64,000 nt of DNA from NCBI GenBank assembly GCA_947446925.1, contig CANFHU010000006.1, positions 62,001 through 126,000 on the forward strand, given 5' to 3'. The notes beneath the pieces were generated by a model. That model was not told the DNA's origin. It made no database searches and saw nothing but the letters and a program-made list of their open reading frames with translations. Origin of the DNA: Flavobacteriia bacterium. GTDB lineage: Bacteria; Bacteroidota; Bacteroidia; Flavobacteriales_D; Crocinitomicaceae. Below are positions 23,381-32,017 of the stretch, in pieces. A program made the position numbers and the translations under genes. Position 1 is the first letter of the stretch; the number at the start of each line of letters is the position of its first letter.

Positions 23381-25786
23381 ATGAATAGAAATATTAGAAA
23401 AGTTGCCATCCTTGGTTCCGGTGTGATGGGGTCAAGAATTGCTTGTCATTTTGCAAATATTGGGTGTGAAGTAGTATTGTTAGATATTCAGCCAAAAGAA
23501 TTAAATGATAAAGAAGTAACTGCTGGATTGACAATTGAATCCGCTTCTTTTAAAAATCGAATTGTAAATGATGCGCTTCAATTTGCATTAAAAACAAATC
23601 CTTCTCCAATTTATTCAAAACGTTTTATTTCTAGAATAGTTACTGGAAATTTCACGGACAATATGCCATTAATTTCAGATTGTGATTGGATTATTGAAGT
23701 TGTTATTGAACGTTTAGATATTAAAAAACAAATATTTGAACAAGTAGAAAAATTCAGAAAACCGGGTACTATTATTTCTTCTAATACTTCAGGGATTCCT
23801 ATACACTTAATGTTGGAAGGTAGAACTGAAGACTTTCAACAACATTTTTGCGGGACGCATTTTTTCAATCCTCCACGATATTTGCAATTGTTAGAGATTA
23901 TTCCGACATCTCAAACAAAAAGTGAAATTGTCGCTTTTTTAATGGATTTTGGAAGTCGTTTTCTAGGGAAAAAGACGGTATTGTGTAAAGATACTCCTGC
24001 TTTCATTGCGAATCGTGTAGGGGTTTATTCGATTATGTCTTTGTTTCATTTAGTTGGTGAAATGGATTTAACGGTGGAAGAGGTAGATAAATTGACAGGT
24101 CCTGTTTTAGGTCGACCTAAATCTGCGACATTCCGTACCTGTGATGTTGTAGGTTTAGACACCCTAGTACACGTTGCAAATGGTTTGAGAGATAACTGTA
24201 TACAAGACGAAGAAAATAAAAAATTTGATCTACCTAAATATGTATCGACCATGGTTGAAAACAATTGGTTAGGTTCAAAGTCAAAACAAGGATTCTATAA
24301 AAAAGGGACGAATGCAGAAGGTAAAAGTGAAATTTTCACATTAGACCTTAATTCCATGGAATATCGTTCTGCAATTAAAGCAAAATTTAGTTCATTAGAA
24401 GCAGTTAAATCGATAGATGACTTAAAACAAAGAACCAAAGTTCTTGCTTCAGCGAAGGATAAAGCGGGAGAATTCTATAGAAAATTATTTGGAGGTTTAT
24501 TTGCTTATGTTTCAAATCGTATTCCTGAAATTTCAGATCAGTTGTATAAAATTGATGATGCATTAAAAGCAGGATTCGGTTGGGAATTAGGTCCTTTTGA
24601 GACTTGGGATGCAATAGGTTTAGAAGCAGGTTTGAAATTGATTGAGGATGCTGGTTGTAAAGTAGCCCCATGGGTTTTGGATTTTGTTAAAACTGGTCAA
24701 AAAACATTTTATACGCAATGTGAAGGAAAAAAATATTTTTATAATCAGATAGATAAAGAAAATCAGATTATACCTGGAACGGAAGATTTGATTATTTTGG
24801 ATTCATTAAGAGAGTCACATACCGTATGGAAAAATTCGGATGTTTCGATTATAGATATCGGAGAGGGTATTTTGAATGTTGAGTTTCATACAAAAATGAA
24901 TACCATTGGTGGCGGGGTAGTGCAAGGACTTCATAAAGCAATTGATTTAGCCGAAAAAGAATACCGTGGTTTAGTGATTTATAACAATGGTCAAAATTTT
25001 TCTGCAGGTGCAAATGTCGGAATGATTTTTATGATGGCAATCGAGCAAGAATACGATGAGTTAAATTTTGCAATAAAGGCTTTTCAAGATGTGATGATGC
25101 GTATACGTTATTGTAATGTTCCAGTTATTGTAGCACCCCATAATATGGCTTTAGGTGGAAGTTGTGAAATGTCGATGCATGCGGACAAAGTAGTTGCGCA
25201 CGCTGAGTTATATATGGGATTAGTCGAATTTGGCGTTGGTTTAATTCCTGGTGGCGGTGGTACGAAAGAGTTTGCTAAACGACTTTCAGATGAATTAAAA
25301 GATGGTGATATAAAAATCAATAGATTTAGAGATAAATTTCTAACAATTGGACAAGCGAAAGTTTCTACATCGGCTTATGAAGCATTTGATCTTGGGTATC
25401 TACGTGTTGGTGTAGACGAAGTAGTTGTAAGTAGAGATCATCAGTTGTTACGTGCTAAACATGCGTGTTTAGAATTGGCGGATGCTGGTTATATTGCACC
25501 AAAAAGAGCAAAAAATATTACAGTCCTTGGAAAAGAAGCTTTAGGTATTGTCTATGTTGGTGCTCATTCTATGTTATCTGGAAATTATATGTCTAAACAT
25601 GATCAAGTGATTTCAGAAAAACTTGGGTATGTATTAGCAGGTGGTGATTTATCTGAAAACACATTAGTTTCCGAACAATATGTTTTGGATTTGGAAAGAA
25701 AAGCATTTCTTCAACTATGTATGGAAAAGAAAACATTAGAACGCTTACAAAGTATTTTGAAACAGGGAAAAATTTTACGTAATTAG
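23381..25786 (+). CDS. fadN: 3-hydroxyacyl-CoA dehydrogenase/enoyl-CoA hydratase (FadN-type)
   Basis: This 801-residue bifunctional beta-oxidation enzyme hydrates enoyl-CoA and oxidises the 3-hydroxyacyl-CoA. The dehydrogenase comes first (NAD motif ILGSGVMGSRIACHFANIG, CGTHFFNPPRYLQLLEIIP, then the C-terminal HCDH domain), and the crotonase domain is at the C-terminus (NGQNFSAGANVGM, ALGGSCEMSMHADKVV, GVGLIPGGGGTKE). That order is reversed relative to E. coli FadB and matches Bacillus FadN. A thiolase gene follows, but the two are separated by a four-helix-bundle insertion whose first flanking repeat contains this gene's stop codon. Confidence 0.93.
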   Translation: MNRNIRKVAILGSGVMGSRIACHFANIGCEVVLLDIQPKELNDKEVTAGLTIESASFKNRIVNDALQFALKTNPSPIYSKRFISRIVTGNFTDNMPLISDCDWIIEVVIERLDIKKQIFEQVEKFRKPGTIISSNTSGIPIHLMLEGRTEDFQQHFCGTHFFNPPRYLQLLEIIPTSQTKSEIVAFLMDFGSRFLGKKTVLCKDTPAFIANRVGVYSIMSLFHLVGEMDLTVEEVDKLTGPVLGRPKSATFRTCDVVGLDTLVHVANGLRDNCIQDEENKKFDLPKYVSTMVENNWLGSKSKQGFYKKGTNAEGKSEIFTLDLNSMEYRSAIKAKFSSLEAVKSIDDLKQRTKVLASAKDKAGEFYRKLFGGLFAYVSNRIPEISDQLYKIDDALKAGFGWELGPFETWDAIGLEAGLKLIEDAGCKVAPWVLDFVKTGQKTFYTQCEGKKYFYNQIDKENQIIPGTEDLIILDSLRESHTVWKNSDVSIIDIGEGILNVEFHTKMNTIGGGVVQGLHKAIDLAEKEYRGLVIYNNGQNFSAGANVGMIFMMAIEQEYDELNFAIKAFQDVMMRIRYCNVPVIVAPHNMALGGSCEMSMHADKVVAHAELYMGLVEFGVGLIPGGGGTKEFAKRLSDELKDGDIKINRFRDKFLTIGQAKVSTSAYEAFDLGYLRVGVDEVVVSRDHQLLRAKHACLELADAGYIAPKRAKNITVLGKEALGIVYVGAHSMLSGNYMSKHDQVISEKLGYVLAGGDLSENTLVSEQYVLDLERKAFLQLCMEKKTLERLQSILKQGKILRN

Positions 25787-25810
25787 ACAAAAGAAGTGTA
25801 GACAAAAGAA
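25784..25810. repeat. Left flank: 12-bp direct repeat (TAGACAAAAGAA twice)
   Basis: TAGACAAAAGAA occurs at 25784-25795 and 25799-25810, 3 bp apart, and is followed by another AAAAGAC. The first copy supplies the fadN stop codon. It forms one edge of the S23 cassette. Confidence 0.75.
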
Positions 25811-25821
25811 AAAAGACATAC

Positions 25822-26175
25822 GTGAAGCATAATTTTAGAGAATTGAAAATATGGAAAGACTCAATGAGTTTAGTTAAAATTGTTTATCTAACTACTCAAA
25901 ATCTTCCATCGAATGAAAAATTTGGATTAATTTCTCAAGTTAATCGATCAGCCGTTTCTATTCCATCTAACATTGCTGAAGGTTCAGGTAGGACCAGTGA
26001 AAAAGAGTTTGTTCATTTTTTTAATATCGCAATTTCATCTTCATTCGAATTAGAAACGCAATTAATATTAATTTCTGATTTATTTGAATTAGATACTTCT
26101 CATTGTTTACAGAAAATAGTAGAAATACAGAAAATGATTTCAGGATTTAAAAAATCCTTAATAAAAATTAACTAA
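25822..26175 (+). CDS. Four-helix-bundle protein (S23/IVP family)
   Basis: The 117-residue protein has a GTG start and is a member of the four-helix-bundle family first seen inside 23S rRNA intervening sequences and related to the Avd accessory proteins of diversity-generating retroelements. The family signature is clear: FRELKIWKDSM at the N-terminus, then FGLISQVNRSAVSIPSNIAEGSGRTSEKEF. The cellular role is unknown. It separates the beta-oxidation genes fadN and thiolase and is bordered by short paired repeats on both sides, so it looks like an inserted cassette rather than an operon member. No reverse transcriptase or template repeat was found nearby. Confidence 0.9.
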   Translation: MKHNFRELKIWKDSMSLVKIVYLTTQNLPSNEKFGLISQVNRSAVSIPSNIAEGSGRTSEKEFVHFFNIAISSSFELETQLILISDLFELDTSHCLQKIVEIQKMISGFKKSLIKIN

Positions 26176-26199
26176 GTCAAAAAAATAAAGGAAAGCCAA

Positions 26200-26232
26200 G
26201 TCTTTAATCTTTGTTCTTTTCGTCTTTAATCT
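26200..26232. repeat. Right flank: paired 11-bp repeat (GTCTTTAATCT twice)
   Basis: GTCTTTAATCT occurs at 26200-26210 and 26222-26232 with TTGTTCTTTTC between. Its reverse complement AGATTAAAGAC resembles the left-flank words TAGACAAAAGA and AAAAGAC, so the cassette edges are loosely inverted. Confidence 0.7.
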
Positions 26233-26247
26233 AAAAAAAATATAACA

Positions 26248-27426
26248 ATGAAACAAAACTCATACATAGTAGCAGGTTACAGAACTGCAATAGGAAAAGC
26301 TGGTAAAGGTGGTTTTCGCTTTTCTAGACCGGATGAATTAGGTGCAGAGGTAATTCGACATTTAATGAGTCAGTTTCCTCAATTAGATCCAGATCGTGTA
26401 GATGATGTGATTGTTGGTAACGCAACTCCAGAAGCGGAACAAGGGTTAAATATGGGGAGAATGATTTCTTTGATGGGCTTTGATTCCGTGAAAGTTCCTG
26501 GAATTACTGTAAACAGATATTGTTCTTCAGGGTTAGAAACAATTGCGATGGCAAGAGCAAAAATCGAAGCAGGAATGGCTGACTGTATTATCGCAGGTGG
26601 AGCTGAGTCTATGTCGATTATGGCAATGGGAGGATGGAGAATTGTTCCTGGTTCCAAAGTAGCAAAAGAACATCCGGAATGGTATTGGGGGATGGGATTA
26701 ACGGCGGAAGCGGTAGCTAATCAATTTAAAATATCTAGAGAAGCGCAAGATACTTTTGCGGTTCATTCACATGAAAAAGCCCTAAAGGCGATTGCAGAAG
26801 GGAAGTTTAAAGAAGAAATAGTACCAATTACCGTGGAGCATATTTTTTTGGATAAAAACGAAAAACGTCAAGTTAAATCCTATGTCGTAGATACCGATGA
26901 AGGCCCACGAAAAAGTACAGTTGAAGGACTTGGTGCATTAAAACCTGTTTTTGCAAATGGTGGTTCAATTACAGCTGGAAATTCCTCGCAAACTTCAGAT
27001 GGTGCTGCATTCGTACTTGTAATGTCAGAACGTATGGTGAAAGAACTGAATATTGAACCAATCGCGCGATTAGCAAGTTATTCTGTAGTAGGTTTAGAAC
27101 CAAGAATTATGGGGATGGGACCAGTTGGAGCAATACCAAAAGCAATTGCGCAAGCAGGCATAACAATGAATGATATTAGTTTAATAGAGTTGAACGAAGC
27201 TTTTGCTAGTCAGTCGTTAGCGGTAATAGAAGAATTAAAATTAAATACCGAAATTGTCAATGTAAATGGGGGCGCCTTGGCCTTAGGTCATCCACTTGGT
27301 TGTTCAGGTGCAAAGTTAACGGTTCAAATGTTGTCAGAATTGAAACGAAGAAAACAAAAATATGGTATCGTAACGATGTGTGTGGGTACAGGTCAAGGTG
27401 CGGCAGGTGTTATTGAGATGCTATAG
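26248..27426 (+). CDS. fadA: Acetyl-CoA C-acyltransferase (thiolase)
   Basis: A degradative thiolase of 392 residues that cleaves 3-ketoacyl-CoA to acetyl-CoA and a shortened acyl-CoA. The nucleophilic cysteine is in NRYCSSGLETIAMA (about residue 91), the histidine in NGGALALGHPLGCSGA and the second cysteine in TMCVGTGQGAAGV. It follows the fadN-type gene, as in Bacillus fadNA, but with the four-helix-bundle cassette between them. A terminator follows, so the unit ends here. Confidence 0.94.
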   Translation: MKQNSYIVAGYRTAIGKAGKGGFRFSRPDELGAEVIRHLMSQFPQLDPDRVDDVIVGNATPEAEQGLNMGRMISLMGFDSVKVPGITVNRYCSSGLETIAMARAKIEAGMADCIIAGGAESMSIMAMGGWRIVPGSKVAKEHPEWYWGMGLTAEAVANQFKISREAQDTFAVHSHEKALKAIAEGKFKEEIVPITVEHIFLDKNEKRQVKSYVVDTDEGPRKSTVEGLGALKPVFANGGSITAGNSSQTSDGAAFVLVMSERMVKELNIEPIARLASYSVVGLEPRIMGMGPVGAIPKAIAQAGITMNDISLIELNEAFASQSLAVIEELKLNTEIVNVNGGALALGHPLGCSGAKLTVQMLSELKRRKQKYGIVTMCVGTGQGAAGVIEML

Positions 27427-27603: not shown

Positions 27604-29511
27604 ATGAAGAAAAAATTACTATTATCATTTGCAGTTTTCGCTACGGCGTTGAGTGTGAATGCACAAAAAAAGAATGCATTAAGAGTTAAAGACTCTGATA
27701 ATTCCTTGAAAACAATTGAATACTATACTTCTGCTGAAAGAAGTACTTTCGAGGGAGTAAAAAGTAACAAAAGAGGTGGTGTTTTAGTTGTTGATACTGT
27801 AGGTATGTTGCAAGAAAAATATTATTATGCTTCTCCATTTAGAAGAACTAAAACAGTTCAAAATTATTTTTATAATGATGCTACTGATTTATCAGTTGCA
27901 AATGCAAATAATTTAGATACTACAGATTTAGAGTTTACTACTTATACTCAAATGGTTGTAAATAACGCGAAATTTACATTGAAAGGTTTGAAATTTCCAT
28001 ATGTAGCAATTAATCCTAATTCATTTGATGTTAAGGTATATGCTGTAAGAGATGGTAAATTGCAAAAATTAGCTTCTAAAACAGTTACACCTACTAAGAC
28101 TGGTGCTTGGGTTACTGGTAGAGTTATTTTTGATGCTGCAGTAAATGTTGTAGATGATACTTTGTTATACCAATTTGAACCAGCTGAAGTTAAAACTAAA
28201 TTTGTATTACAAGTTGGAGGTATTTATGGTAAAGCTTTTGAATCAACAGTTGCTACTGTAATTAAAGGAACAGCTGACGCTGATACTTTAAGTGTTACTA
28301 CTTGGAAAAAGGAAGGTAATTATTCGCATTCGTATTTCTTTGGAGGTCAAGTGGTTAAAGGTGATTTTTTAGACGCTGGAACTACAATTATTAAGCGTGT
28401 AGGTCTAAATAAATATTTAATTAAGCCTCAAGCTAAACTAGGTGCTAATTTTGCAGTTGCAGGTGATGCCTTAAGATATTTGGCAGATAACAAAAGTGAT
28501 GCTTATGTTATTTATACTAAGTTTCCTACTGTAAAATCAGCGTCTGGTATTGAACCAGATTTTAATCAAAATCCAAGTATTACTCAAGAAGGTATGTATT
28601 ATACTCAAACTGGTGTAGATGCTAATCAAAGACCTATTTACAGAATGGAAGATACTGATATTGATTTTTCACCAATTGTTGAATATACATTGGAAAGATC
28701 TGCTACGATTAGTAATAAATGTTTAGCTACTTCTAAGACTGTAGAAATTACTGTTACACCAAATGATTATTCTAAAAATCCTATGTTTAATTACTATGCA
28801 TTTGCTGCTAAGTTTTTGAATAAAAAAGGTACTGATGGTATTTTATACTCTCGTATTTTTAGTACAAATTCATTAGTTTCTGGTGATACTATCGATGTTG
28901 ATAATGATGTAAATAAATATACTTTTACATATGCAGCTACTGACAAAAATGATACTTTAAGAATGTATGATAGATTTTTTGCTTGGTCTAAAGGTGCGAA
29001 TTCTCCAGGGGTTGATTTCTTAATTAGTTCAACAGTTTCTGCTACTACTTCTTCTGTAAAAGCTACTTATAGTCAGTCAAATGGTAAAGCAAGTGCAACA
29101 GTTGCAGGAGGTTTTTCACCTTACACTTACTTATGGAGTAATACAGCAACTACTGCTGATATTAATGTTGCTAAAGGAGATTATTCAGTTGTTGCTACTG
29201 ATGCTAATGGATGTGCATCTGCTAGTGCTAATGTGACTGTTGGTGAATATGCTCTTTCAATTCAAGATTTAGCAATTTCTAGTTTAGCTATTTTCCCTAA
29301 CCCAACTGCAAATGAATTAAACGTTAAATTTAACGCAAACTCAAATGCTACAATTGAATTAGTAAATGTTTCAGGTCAAGTTATTGATACAAAGGTTGCA
29401 AACCAATTTGCTAATGTAACTTTCAATACTTCTGCTTTAAATGCAGGTGTTTATTTTGTAAACATCAAAGTTGCTGAAGGTACATTCACACAAAAAATCA
29501 TCAAAGAATAA
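27604..29511 (+). CDS. T9SS-sorted surface protein with SprB-like repeat
   Basis: The 635-residue protein has a signal peptide (MKKKLLLSFAVFATALSVNA) and ends in a type A T9SS sorting domain: LAIFPNPTANELNVKF, then GQVIDTKV, and the final NAGVYFVNIKVAEGTFTQKI. One SprB-like repeat precedes it (FSPYTYLWSNTATTADIN, then GDYSVVATDANGCASA). The rest is an unknown beta-rich exported region. Codons are strongly biased toward a few A/T-ending types, suggesting high expression as an abundant outer-surface protein. It has its own terminator. Function unknown; a cell-surface or adhesive role is inference. Confidence 0.9.
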   Translation: MKKKLLLSFAVFATALSVNAQKKNALRVKDSDNSLKTIEYYTSAERSTFEGVKSNKRGGVLVVDTVGMLQEKYYYASPFRRTKTVQNYFYNDATDLSVANANNLDTTDLEFTTYTQMVVNNAKFTLKGLKFPYVAINPNSFDVKVYAVRDGKLQKLASKTVTPTKTGAWVTGRVIFDAAVNVVDDTLLYQFEPAEVKTKFVLQVGGIYGKAFESTVATVIKGTADADTLSVTTWKKEGNYSHSYFFGGQVVKGDFLDAGTTIIKRVGLNKYLIKPQAKLGANFAVAGDALRYLADNKSDAYVIYTKFPTVKSASGIEPDFNQNPSITQEGMYYTQTGVDANQRPIYRMEDTDIDFSPIVEYTLERSATISNKCLATSKTVEITVTPNDYSKNPMFNYYAFAAKFLNKKGTDGILYSRIFSTNSLVSGDTIDVDNDVNKYTFTYAATDKNDTLRMYDRFFAWSKGANSPGVDFLISSTVSATTSSVKATYSQSNGKASATVAGGFSPYTYLWSNTATTADINVAKGDYSVVATDANGCASASANVTVGEYALSIQDLAISSLAIFPNPTANELNVKFNANSNATIELVNVSGQVIDTKVANQFANVTFNTSALNAGVYFVNIKVAEGTFTQKIIKE

Positions 29512-29534
29512 TAATTAGTTATTATTGATTGGAG

Positions 29535-29560
29535 AAAGCCGACGAGAGTCGGCTTTTTTT
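29535..29560 (+). terminator. Terminator after the 635-aa surface protein
   Basis: AAAGCCGAC / GTCGGCTTT perfect stem with a GAGA loop followed by a T run. It lies inside the upstream part of the open frame of the next gene, which shows that the next gene cannot start at its first possible codon. Confidence 0.9.
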
Positions 29561-29595
29561 ATACCTAATAATTTAAGTTTTCAATGTATTCTTTT

Positions 29596-29603
29596 TATCT
29601 TTG
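29596..29603 (+). promoter_or_regulatory. Candidate -7 box of the 794-codon T9SS gene
   Basis: TATCTTTG matches TAnnTTTG. Transcription would begin near 29610, supporting a translation start at about 29633 rather than at the terminator-spanning start at 29525. Confidence 0.5.
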
Positions 29604-29632
29604 AAAAGATTAAAAAAATTAATATTTGTTGT

Positions 29633-32017
29633 TTGATTGCTAGGTGTTTATTTCTGATTTTTAGTTCCGTGTTTATGTCTTTCATAAATGCACAAGTTTT
29701 GTTTTCTGAAAATTTTGAAGGAGTAATTTCTAATACTACAAAACTACCTTTGAATTGGCAAGAAACAGGTAGTTCATTAGATGGTATTTATACAGTTGGA
29801 GATAGCAGCCTTGCCAATTATTTACTGAATCAAACATCACTATGGAAAGTTCCAAATCACACCAAATTTGTCATGACCAATGATGTTAGGTGTAGTTATG
29901 AAAAAGGAATAGGCTATTGTAATAAATCAAAAGACCGATTAATACTTCCGGTATTGAATATTCCAAATTATTCAGGTAGTTTAATCCTTAATTTTGATCA
30001 TTTTTTCACGGGTAAACTAGGTTCTCAAGCTGCAATCGAGGTAAGTATTAATGGAGGAAGCACTTGGATTAAAGAATTTGATTTAATTGCAGACGAATCT
30101 AAATGGAGATCAAATTCAGTTAATTTATCTAAATATATTGGTGTTGCCAATGTCTTAATCTCATTTTTATATAATGATAATGATTTGGTGAGAGATGGTT
30201 TAGCAATTGACAATGTAGAATTAAAAAAACAAGTGCCTTGGAAAGATGTTAGTCTGGACTACGTCGATGCTGCAAAATATTCAATTATTCCGATTGCACA
30301 AGTAGATTCGATACCATTGCGATTTATATTTCATAATGAAGGAACACTTGTACTGGATACCGTTCAATTAAACGTACAAATTATAGAGCAAGGATTCCCA
30401 AAAAAAATTCTATTTAATGCAACAGAAATATATCAAAACTTAAAATTAAAGGATACAGTTTCATTCTTATTAGGTAAATTCTTACCAACAAAAAAAAATA
30501 CTACCTATATTATTAAACATTGGGTGAAAACATCTAAAGATACAGTGATTCGAAATGATTCATTAAATATTCCAATATACATTTCACAGGGTTGTTATGC
30601 AAGAGATAATGCATCCGTTAATTCAACATTTGATTTATCGAGTGCAAATACTATTACCATCGGGAATTTATTTTCGTTTAATAAAAAGAGTTTTATAGAT
30701 TCAATTTATTTTGAATCGGGTAGTGCTACAAATGGAACAAGTGTACAAGCCTTTATTTTTCCTGTTATCGATGGAAAAGTATCACTTGTGGAAATAGGAA
30801 AAAGTGATGTCTTTACCCTTTCTAATGGAGTAAACACGAAGTTTTTAAAAGTGAAAAGTAATTTATCGGACAAGGTTTTAATAGATACAGGTGAATATTT
30901 AGTAGCAATTCAAAAAACGAATGGTGGTGGTTCGATGGGGATAAAGTTATGCGATAATTTTTATCAAAAAAACACTGTGTTTATGCGTATTGGACAAGTC
31001 TCTTTTCAAACATTAGACTCTTATTTTTCTGGCACAAAAAAATCAGTCCCAATAATTCAGGCTTTTACCTCTCCATTTTGTAATTTATCTACAAAAATTG
31101 ATAAAATTAATACCAAATGTCAGTTCGCTACTGGTGAATTGAAAGTTACACCTGTACAAGCAACGTTTCCTGTAACTTATTTATGGAATACAGGTGAAAC
31201 GGATTCTGTTATTTCTAAACTTCCAGTAGGACTATATTCTGTTAAAGTGACGGATTATCATAATTGTGTCTTTGATTCGATAAACATTTCTTTAAACCCT
31301 TTTTCCAAGCCAATCATCGAAATAGATAGCCTAAGAAATCCGTTATGTTACAACCAATCAAGTGGATATATTTCAATAACAACTGATAATCCAGGTATTA
31401 TTACGAAAGTGAAATGGAATGGAGTTACTAGTAATCAAGTTTTTATTGATAATGCAAAATCTGGGCTGTATACAGTTAAAGTGGTAGATGGTAATAATTG
31501 TGAGGACTCCTTAAAGGTGACTCTCAGTAATCCTGATTCTTTAACGATTGATTATTTAGTTAAAGATGAGTCTGTGAAAGCGAAAGGTATAATTTCTTTA
31601 TTTGTTTCGGGTGGTAATTCGCCTTATTCTTATTATTGGGGGGATACTATTTATACGAAAAATAGAACGGAATTGATCGGGGATTCTTCCTATGTTGTGG
31701 TAGTGTCTGATACAAATGGGTGTAAAAAATCTACGCAAATATATGTTGGTAGTACCCTAGCGATAGAGGAGGAAGAGTTAGAATTTATTACTTTTTACCC
31801 GAATCCAGTAGAGGATATTTTAAATATAGAAACTTTAGTAGATATTAATAAAATAGCGGTAGTTGACTTGTCTGGGAAAATTTGTAAGCAAGTTGATTTT
31901 ATTCGAAATTTGAATACAATTTTTTCGATTGATTTACATCAACTGGAGAAAGGAGTTTATTATTTGTATGTGCAAAGAAACGGACTAAATAATCAATATA
32001 AATTCCTTAAAAATTAA
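29633..32017 (+). CDS. Large T9SS-sorted surface protein (non-ATG start)
   Basis: A secreted surface protein of about 794 residues. No ATG lies in frame before the signal peptide, so a TTG at 29633 is chosen: it gives IARCLFLIFSSVFMSFINAQ as a good signal sequence and lies about 30 bp after the candidate -7 box. An ATT at 29609, followed by two lysines, is an alternative. The mature part has an MAM/jelly-roll-like segment (LILNFDHFFTGKLGSQAAIE), two SprB-like repeats (FPVTYLWNTGETDSVISKLP and a second before NCEDSLKVTL) and a C-terminal T9SS domain (FYPNPVEDILNI, LEKGVYYLYVQ). Confidence 0.8.
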   Translation: MIARCLFLIFSSVFMSFINAQVLFSENFEGVISNTTKLPLNWQETGSSLDGIYTVGDSSLANYLLNQTSLWKVPNHTKFVMTNDVRCSYEKGIGYCNKSKDRLILPVLNIPNYSGSLILNFDHFFTGKLGSQAAIEVSINGGSTWIKEFDLIADESKWRSNSVNLSKYIGVANVLISFLYNDNDLVRDGLAIDNVELKKQVPWKDVSLDYVDAAKYSIIPIAQVDSIPLRFIFHNEGTLVLDTVQLNVQIIEQGFPKKILFNATEIYQNLKLKDTVSFLLGKFLPTKKNTTYIIKHWVKTSKDTVIRNDSLNIPIYISQGCYARDNASVNSTFDLSSANTITIGNLFSFNKKSFIDSIYFESGSATNGTSVQAFIFPVIDGKVSLVEIGKSDVFTLSNGVNTKFLKVKSNLSDKVLIDTGEYLVAIQKTNGGGSMGIKLCDNFYQKNTVFMRIGQVSFQTLDSYFSGTKKSVPIIQAFTSPFCNLSTKIDKINTKCQFATGELKVTPVQATFPVTYLWNTGETDSVISKLPVGLYSVKVTDYHNCVFDSINISLNPFSKPIIEIDSLRNPLCYNQSSGYISITTDNPGIITKVKWNGVTSNQVFIDNAKSGLYTVKVVDGNNCEDSLKVTLSNPDSLTIDYLVKDESVKAKGIISLFVSGGNSPYSYYWGDTIYTKNRTELIGDSSYVVVVSDTNGCKKSTQIYVGSTLAIEEEELEFITFYPNPVEDILNIETLVDINKIAVVDLSGKICKQVDFIRNLNTIFSIDLHQLEKGVYYLYVQRNGLNNQYKFLKN

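Follow-up and report, generated by a model that had tools for sequence, protein, structure and literature searches.

Intervening-sequence-like S23 cassettes at operon junctions: the fadN-thiolase locus of a Crocinitomicaceae genome

Four-helix-bundle (S23) proteins of the family PF05635 are common and are named after the intervening sequences (IVSs) of 23S rRNA. The S23 gene considered here separates fadN from a thiolase gene in a 64,000-nt stretch of a Flavobacteriia bacterium genome (Crocinitomicaceae; GCA_947446925.1, contig CANFHU010000006.1, positions 62,001 to 126,000, forward strand), hereafter termed the window, and was proposed in an initial annotation to move as a small unit. Homing elements, namely group I introns, inteins and homing endonuclease genes, provide one point of comparison for such a unit. 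Another is the 428-nt IVS in the 23S rRNA of Coxiella burnetii, which is reported to contain an S23 open reading frame (ORF) with tandem heptamers ahead of it and to have complementary ends that form a 28-bp stem, and which is cleaved by RNase III in vitro; the same report cites older proposals of IVS mobility, describes the S23 ORF as decaying, and calls the origin and function of IVSs unclear (PMC4990558). A further report likens PF05635 to Avd (4DWL versus 2GSC), a protein essential for retrohoming (PMC10053308), and intergenic arrays of the heptamer TAACTGA, present in five Bacteroidetes among others, are described in another study (PMC4679880).

The window cassette and its relatives share with the Coxiella IVS an S23 ORF in sense orientation to the transcript, complementary, stem-forming ends, heptameric repeats before the ORF (as a class-wide 7-nt period), a similar size and a patchy distribution. 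They differ from it by their location in protein-coding operons, by occupying many junctions each with its own lineage, and by an S23 gene under purifying selection. As the window cassette lies between fadN and the thiolase gene and not in a 16S or 23S rRNA gene, we call the unit IVS-like; an Rfam scan of 14 of 80 named S23 loci, directed at those left out of the arm test described below, likewise returned no rRNA. With homing elements the cassettes have in common site-specific lineages, presence/absence polymorphism with empty and filled sites in relatives, and same-site replacement between species, but they carry no endonuclease, intron or intein part and reside between genes, not inside one. 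Unlike Avd of diversity-generating retroelements (DGRs), the window S23 gene has neither a reverse transcriptase nor a template/variable repeat beside it. The TAACTGA arrays resemble the S23 arms as tandem 7-nt words in intergenic spacers, but consist of one fixed word in direct repeats, and the passages of that report that were searched mention no four-helix protein, S23 or intervening sequence (PMC4679880). Judged by titles or beginnings of abstracts, none of the open-access literature searched describes S23 genes that have heptad arms and lie between operon genes.

Comparison of related genomes revealed that these cassettes are exchanged, gained or lost whole, with ends close to the upstream stop and the downstream start and with flanks that remain nearly unchanged. 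The initial mobility proposal is therefore supported in its main point, by repeated whole-cassette exchange among close relatives, and the finding is larger than could be seen from a single locus. The proposal has to be narrowed in that S23 lineages are mostly bound to their own junction, and the behaviour of the unit is that of a homing element or an exchanged allele, not of a freely hopping one. These results suggest that an element known from rRNA genes is also resident, and mobile, in ordinary operons. If most PF05635 genes sit in swappable cassettes between co-transcribed genes of core metabolism, IVS movement and the role of S23 become testable in harmless laboratory species, with naturally filled, swapped and empty sites as controls, and operon junctions would then be slots for small mobile units annotated merely as 'four helix bundle protein'.

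Exchange, gain and loss at the fadN-thiolase and sdhA-sdhB junctions

FadN was found in 120 of 150 sampled genomes of the same family. Eight of 111 fadN loci lacked the thiolase gene, and the remainder reduced to 94 genomes with a readable junction, of which 44 carried an S23 gene in a gap of 416-635 nt. The spacer measured at most 12 nt in 11 genomes, 13-40 nt in 6, 41-200 nt in 31, and more in 2. The comparison of relatives for an empty site, as suggested in the initial annotation, was thus positive and extended into the genus of the window, where only 6 nt separate the fadN stop from the thiolase start in G101 and G109. fadN ends in TAG at 31 of the 44 filled junctions and at none of the 11 tight ones (p = 2e-5), a bias suggestive of a stop codon that arrives with the cassette. 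As a separate observation, S23-less fadN-thiolase spacers at L131, L135, L136, L139, L163 and L203 contain CCCTCC/GGAGGG-type palindromes resembling repetitive extragenic palindromic (REP) elements, which gives the gap the look of a site open to varied hairpins.

The genome of the window (G000, 3.15 Mb) and G001 share one cassette, while their near relative G054 has another. The S23 gene of the latter is 98.6% identical to that of G024, whereas identity between the flanks of the two genomes is only 81-85%. In G054, the foreign sequence extends no more than about 22 nt into fadN and stops, on the other side, at the right arm's outer edge. In G077, a G054-type cassette is followed by the remnant of a window-type right arm. 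By these identities, one cassette has moved between the lineages of G024 and G054, which is the clearest transfer observed.

Among 14 genome pairs in which both flanks are about 90% identical or more (rounded values, with genomes reused among pairs), five share the same cassette (S23 identity 86-99%), four hold different S23 cassettes (60-64%), one is intermediate (74%) and four contrast an S23 gene with none. G112 and G132, with flanks 98/98% identical, differ by 29 nt in the former versus a cassette in the latter, although the direction of this change is unsure, as the spacer of G112 resembles that of G104, but the cassettes of G088 and G080 show 79% likeness to that of G132. G029 and G058 differ at two junctions: at fadN-thiolase (flanks 97/99% identical) a cassette stands against another hairpin, and at sdhA-sdhB the two genomes have different S23 cassettes (S23 identity 69.7%) with both arms changed, while 50-nt windows are 96-100% identical up to the sdhA stop. 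At L024 the sdhB start was called 51 nt too early, so that the first downstream identity window reads 0.

S23 lineages and their junctions

PF05635 was present in 129 of the 150 family genomes. The 113 family loci analysed are among the matches listed for these genomes, include the three of G000 and are not a random sample; the named set comprises the best 80 of a longer list, mostly Bacteroidota, found with an alignment of fadN-type S23 proteins. Gene starts and neighbours were taken from a simple longest-ORF caller, so that some neighbours are misjudged (e.g. L106). All three PF05635 genes of G000 split operon pairs (sufB|S23|sufC, the fadN|S23|thiolase locus of the window, and scoA|S23|scoB), and each is flanked by its own words. 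Both neighbours lie on the S23 strand at 97/113 family and 73/80 named loci, compared with 196/379 control gene triples (Fisher p = 1e-11 and 3e-12, respectively), and both lie opposite at 2/113 and 2/80.

Recurrent sites among the 113 loci are sdhA|sdhB (23), fadN|thiolase (20), sufB|sufC (18), DNA polymerase IV|DnaE (dinB|dnaE, 8) and panB|RluA-family (5). Sites with two or three members, for which representatives were scanned, include PAPS-reductase-type|GTPase, which we take to be cysD|cysN, a hisH|hisA type and kynureninase|FAD monooxygenase; 26 loci have a site of their own. The fadN|thiolase site also occurs in named loci of other Bacteroidota groups, as judged by ORF sizes and, for L221 and L271, by sequence. 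In a tree of the 113 S23 proteins, which has few alignment columns and many unresolved forks, the sufB|sufC (18) and dinB|dnaE (8) members each fall on one side of a branch, the sdhA|sdhB label changes three times and the fadN|thiolase label five times, and all 12 labels together require 22 changes, compared with 73.4 after shuffling. The tree thus suggests that S23 genes belong largely to site-specific lineages, which mostly keep to their own junction. Free hopping between sites was not supported: the two highest S23 identities between different sites (97% and 94%) involve loci with unclassifiable neighbours, and all others are at most 77%.

The ratio of nonsynonymous to synonymous substitution rates (dN/dS) ranged from 0.02 to 0.27 in 16 of 18 S23 pairs, including 0.15 for the window gene and its G001 orthologue; the other two values (0.60 and 1.01) come from very recent pairs with few changes. 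By this measure, the S23 protein is under purifying selection.

Beyond the Bacteroidota, S23 genes with arm-like repeats and the same-strand layout were observed at L239 (Gracilibacteria), L252 (Patescibacteria) and L258 (Gastranaerophilales). The same pattern fits a Flavobacterium columnare locus at which guanylate kinase and nadD are separated by a four helix bundle gene, in a region tabulated as phage (PMC5524665).

The window cassette and the arms of its class

In the window, all features lie on the forward strand. The upstream host gene (23381..25786) encodes an 801-aa 3-hydroxyacyl-CoA dehydrogenase/enoyl-CoA hydratase of the FadN/FadB type with the domains 3HCDH_N, 3HCDH and ECH_1, and a Staph_FadB match below its cut-off. 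The left arm (25784..25817) is made of words of about 7-8 nt, with TAGACAAAAGAA at 25784-25795 and 25799-25810 followed by AAAAGAC. The S23 gene (25822..26175) starts with GTG and encodes 117 aa. The right arm (26200..26234), delimited by its repeats, arm score and predicted fold, is inverted relative to the left and carries GTCTTTAATCT at 26200-26210 and 26222-26232. The downstream gene (26248..27426), identified by its ORF and profile matches, encodes a 392-aa acetyl-CoA C-acyltransferase (thiolase). Beginning with the fadN stop codon and ending shortly before the thiolase gene, this interval constitutes one discrete cassette, a member of a site-specific lineage at this junction.

The structural claims of the initial annotation were borne out. 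A four-helix-bundle gene does split the fadN-thiolase pair: its ORF belongs to the S23 family by profile, matching PF05635 (23S_rRNA_IVP; E = 3.7e-33, 114.4 bits, curated cut-off 33.8) and TIGR02436 (four helix bundle protein; E = 3e-32, 111.1 bits, cut-off 24), and is related to the solved structures 2gsc (E = 3.9e-18) and 2rld. Both repeats occur twice on the side stated for them, and as the fadN stop TAG occupies 25784-25786, inside the left arm, the first left repeat supplies the stop codon as claimed. The borders, described as loosely inverted, score 24.0 when the left spacer is compared with the reverse complement of the right, a value reached by none of 50 right-spacer shuffles (mean 11.8). 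In the predicted fold of the RNA from 25781 to 26250, the arms pair from the fadN stop to 26234 (minimum free energy -86.7 kcal/mol, z = -2.63, with 0/100 shuffles as low).

Recurrence of the border words, to which the same annotation had looked for confirmation, was found only in part. Orthologous cassettes in G001 and G085 are flanked by the words of the window, in addition to the remnant in G077, but in G000 these words occupy a single place at up to three mismatches, and each cassette of the class has words of its own, so that there is no fixed border sequence and only the layout recurs. Fixed words as a general mark of S23 genes were accordingly rejected. An insertion sequence or miniature inverted-repeat transposable element mobilised by a transposase would have fixed terminal inverted repeats shared among copies, which are missing here.

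Across the class, the arm test retained 87 of the 113 family loci, leaving out 26 with a neighbour missing, neighbours that were not co-directional or a spacer below 15 nt, and 68 of the 80 named loci, with 12 left out on the same criteria. Left arms compared with their own right arms in inverted orientation scored 28.4 on average, versus 15.2 with right arms of other loci and a maximum of 17.5 in 5000 permutations; in the named set, the corresponding values were 28.0, 14.5 and 17.5. The own right arm was the best match at 19/87 loci and among the best five at 49/87. Scores of at least 24 were reached by 55/87 S23 loci and scores of at least 28 by 42/87, compared with 2/78 and 0/78 of control genes with co-directional neighbours; one of the two control genes was the window gene itself, without which 1/77 reaches 24. 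The arms have a period of 7 nt with harmonics at 14, 21 and 28 nt that is absent on average from 100 control spacers: the lag-7 self-match excess was +0.138 in 144 arms and +0.174 in 94 named arms, as opposed to +0.002 in the control spacers, and the best single lag was 7, 14 or 21 in 80/144, 71/94 and 23/100, respectively. The exact repeats of the window, spaced 15 and 22 nt, correspond to about two and three such periods. In 48 elements, the arms begin a median of 9 nt after the upstream stop and end 10.5 nt before the next start, and lie farther from the S23 gene (medians 20 and 22.5 nt) than from the neighbouring genes.

Simple repeats that arose by chance in a spacer rich in A and T, next to a small gene with no connection to them, would be compatible with the modest rank of the window arms, for which 5 of 86 foreign right arms equal or beat the own one (6th of 87), and with the lack of further copies of the exact words in G000. 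For the class, chance is refuted by the permutation and control tests on two locus sets and by the 7-nt period, and for this locus the orthologues in G001 and G085 with the same words argue against it, which makes such an origin scarcely credible.

Two irregular layouts were also observed. At the fadN-thiolase locus L141 (G069), arm-like heptad words additionally occur close to the beginning of the S23 coding sequence. To the right of the S23 gene at L046, L047, L051 and L054, and on both sides of it at L007, left-type and right-type arrays share one spacer, which would fit a second cassette reduced to its arms by loss of the S23 gene.

Mode of movement and the role of the arms

How the cassette moves and whether its RNA is excised we infer as follows. 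The cassette, a promoterless S23 gene with an arm of private words of roughly 7 nt on each side, the two inverted to each other, would be an IVS element like that of 23S rRNA that resides in a polycistronic mRNA, reads in the direction of the operon and depends on the host promoter for transcription. The arms would pair into a long stem with the S23 gene in its loop; RNase III may cleave this stem, as it does in rRNA IVSs, with both neighbours still expressed. Spread would be homing-like: short homology at the conserved gene ends would allow the cassette of a donor to take the place of the stop-to-start interval in the same operon of another strain, and each lineage would thereby be tied to one junction. 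The S23 protein, which is related to 2gsc and Avd, both toroidal pentamers, may assist as a nucleic-acid-binding or annealing factor. Taken as one reading, such an IVS-like and homing-like S23 cassette outside rRNA is in our view moderately probable. A bolder version, which we advance tentatively and regard as rather improbable, would be transposase-free homing, driven by an Avd-like pentamer whose gene lies in the loop of a stem made of private heptads and which brings about precise stop-to-start replacement at one operon junction; the 23S rRNA IVS would then be no more than the rRNA-resident form of an element general to operon junctions.

Several observations weigh against the IVS-like, homing-like reading. 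G024/G054 is the only fadN-thiolase pair in which likeness at the junction clearly exceeds that of both flanks; across 126 pairs compared at the same site, S23 conservation usually falls short of that of the flanks (median -7 points), and many of the genomes are probably metagenome bins, so that any single pair may reflect a chimeric assembly. Moreover, 32/87 S23 elements score below 24 in the arm test, own arms are also alike in direct orientation (22.8 versus 14.0 for the arms of other elements), and the arms of L028, L043, L099 and L105 look direct, not inverted. Finally, we know of no enzyme for S23 cassettes. Ordinary allelic exchange, in which old, vertically inherited and often lost cassettes are reshuffled by short-tract homologous recombination and no movement is self-driven, has several points in its favour: the largely site-specific lineages may be mostly vertical, S23 diverges with or faster than its flanks in most of the 126 pairs, the near-empty spacer of G112 could represent a loss, given the likeness of the G132 cassette to those of G088 and G080, and searches for a reverse transcriptase or a Y1 transposase yielded no partner enzyme. 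Against it, the exchanged tracts stop near the cassette ends (G029/G058 at sdhA-sdhB, G054 at fadN-thiolase), and turnover is high, with 8 of the 14 close pairs, which share genomes, differing. On these grounds, we consider allelic exchange alone possible but on the unlikely side.

The search for partners covered two families. The reverse transcriptase profile PF00078 had no match in G000 and matched 65/150 family genomes, but neither G003 nor G004, which hold nine and eight S23 genes; the DGR arrangement of a reverse transcriptase with an accessory protein is thus not found. Y1_Tnp (PF01797) had two matches in G000 and at least one in 97/150 genomes, but none in G005, G019 and G044 (seven, six and six S23 genes). 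As both are lacking from several S23-rich genomes, neither is supported as a necessary standing partner, and a trans-acting mover could have been lost since or belong to another family.

At the RNA level, partition-function calculations gave 21.5 expected pairs between own arms, compared with 8.0 for decoys (p = 4e-10). Two further results again speak against the IVS-like reading, namely that G.U and A.C arm mismatches are nearly equal in number (105 versus 93 in 66 elements, 28 versus 26 in 51 stricter stems), whereas G.U should be in excess if RNA pairing kept the arms alike, so that RNA-level selection read from these mismatches is not supported, and that predicted cross-arm pairing is no better in sense than in antisense (p = 0.51). 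The absence of a G.U excess and of a sense preference implies either a strand-symmetric cause of arm likeness or a turnover too fast to show selection, and it is at this missing RNA-strand signal that the IVS-RNA step is weakest. It equally counts against a host-selected RNA device, in which an mRNA stem would regulate, insulate or couple the translation of the operon genes, S23 would be regulator or passenger, and mobility would be incidental. Such a device would be in line with arms that hug the neighbouring genes, with pairing above decoys, with S23 genes that are sense to both neighbours at 97 and antisense to both at 2 of the 113 loci, and with hairpins better than all 60 shuffles in 10/31 S23-less spacers of 41-200 nt, whereas 11/94 genomes do with a tight junction and no device at all; we regard it as quite unlikely.

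Outside the cassette, two large ORFs of 635 and 830 aa (27604-32017) lie 3' of the thiolase gene in the window and terminate in repeats resembling secretion-sorting tails.

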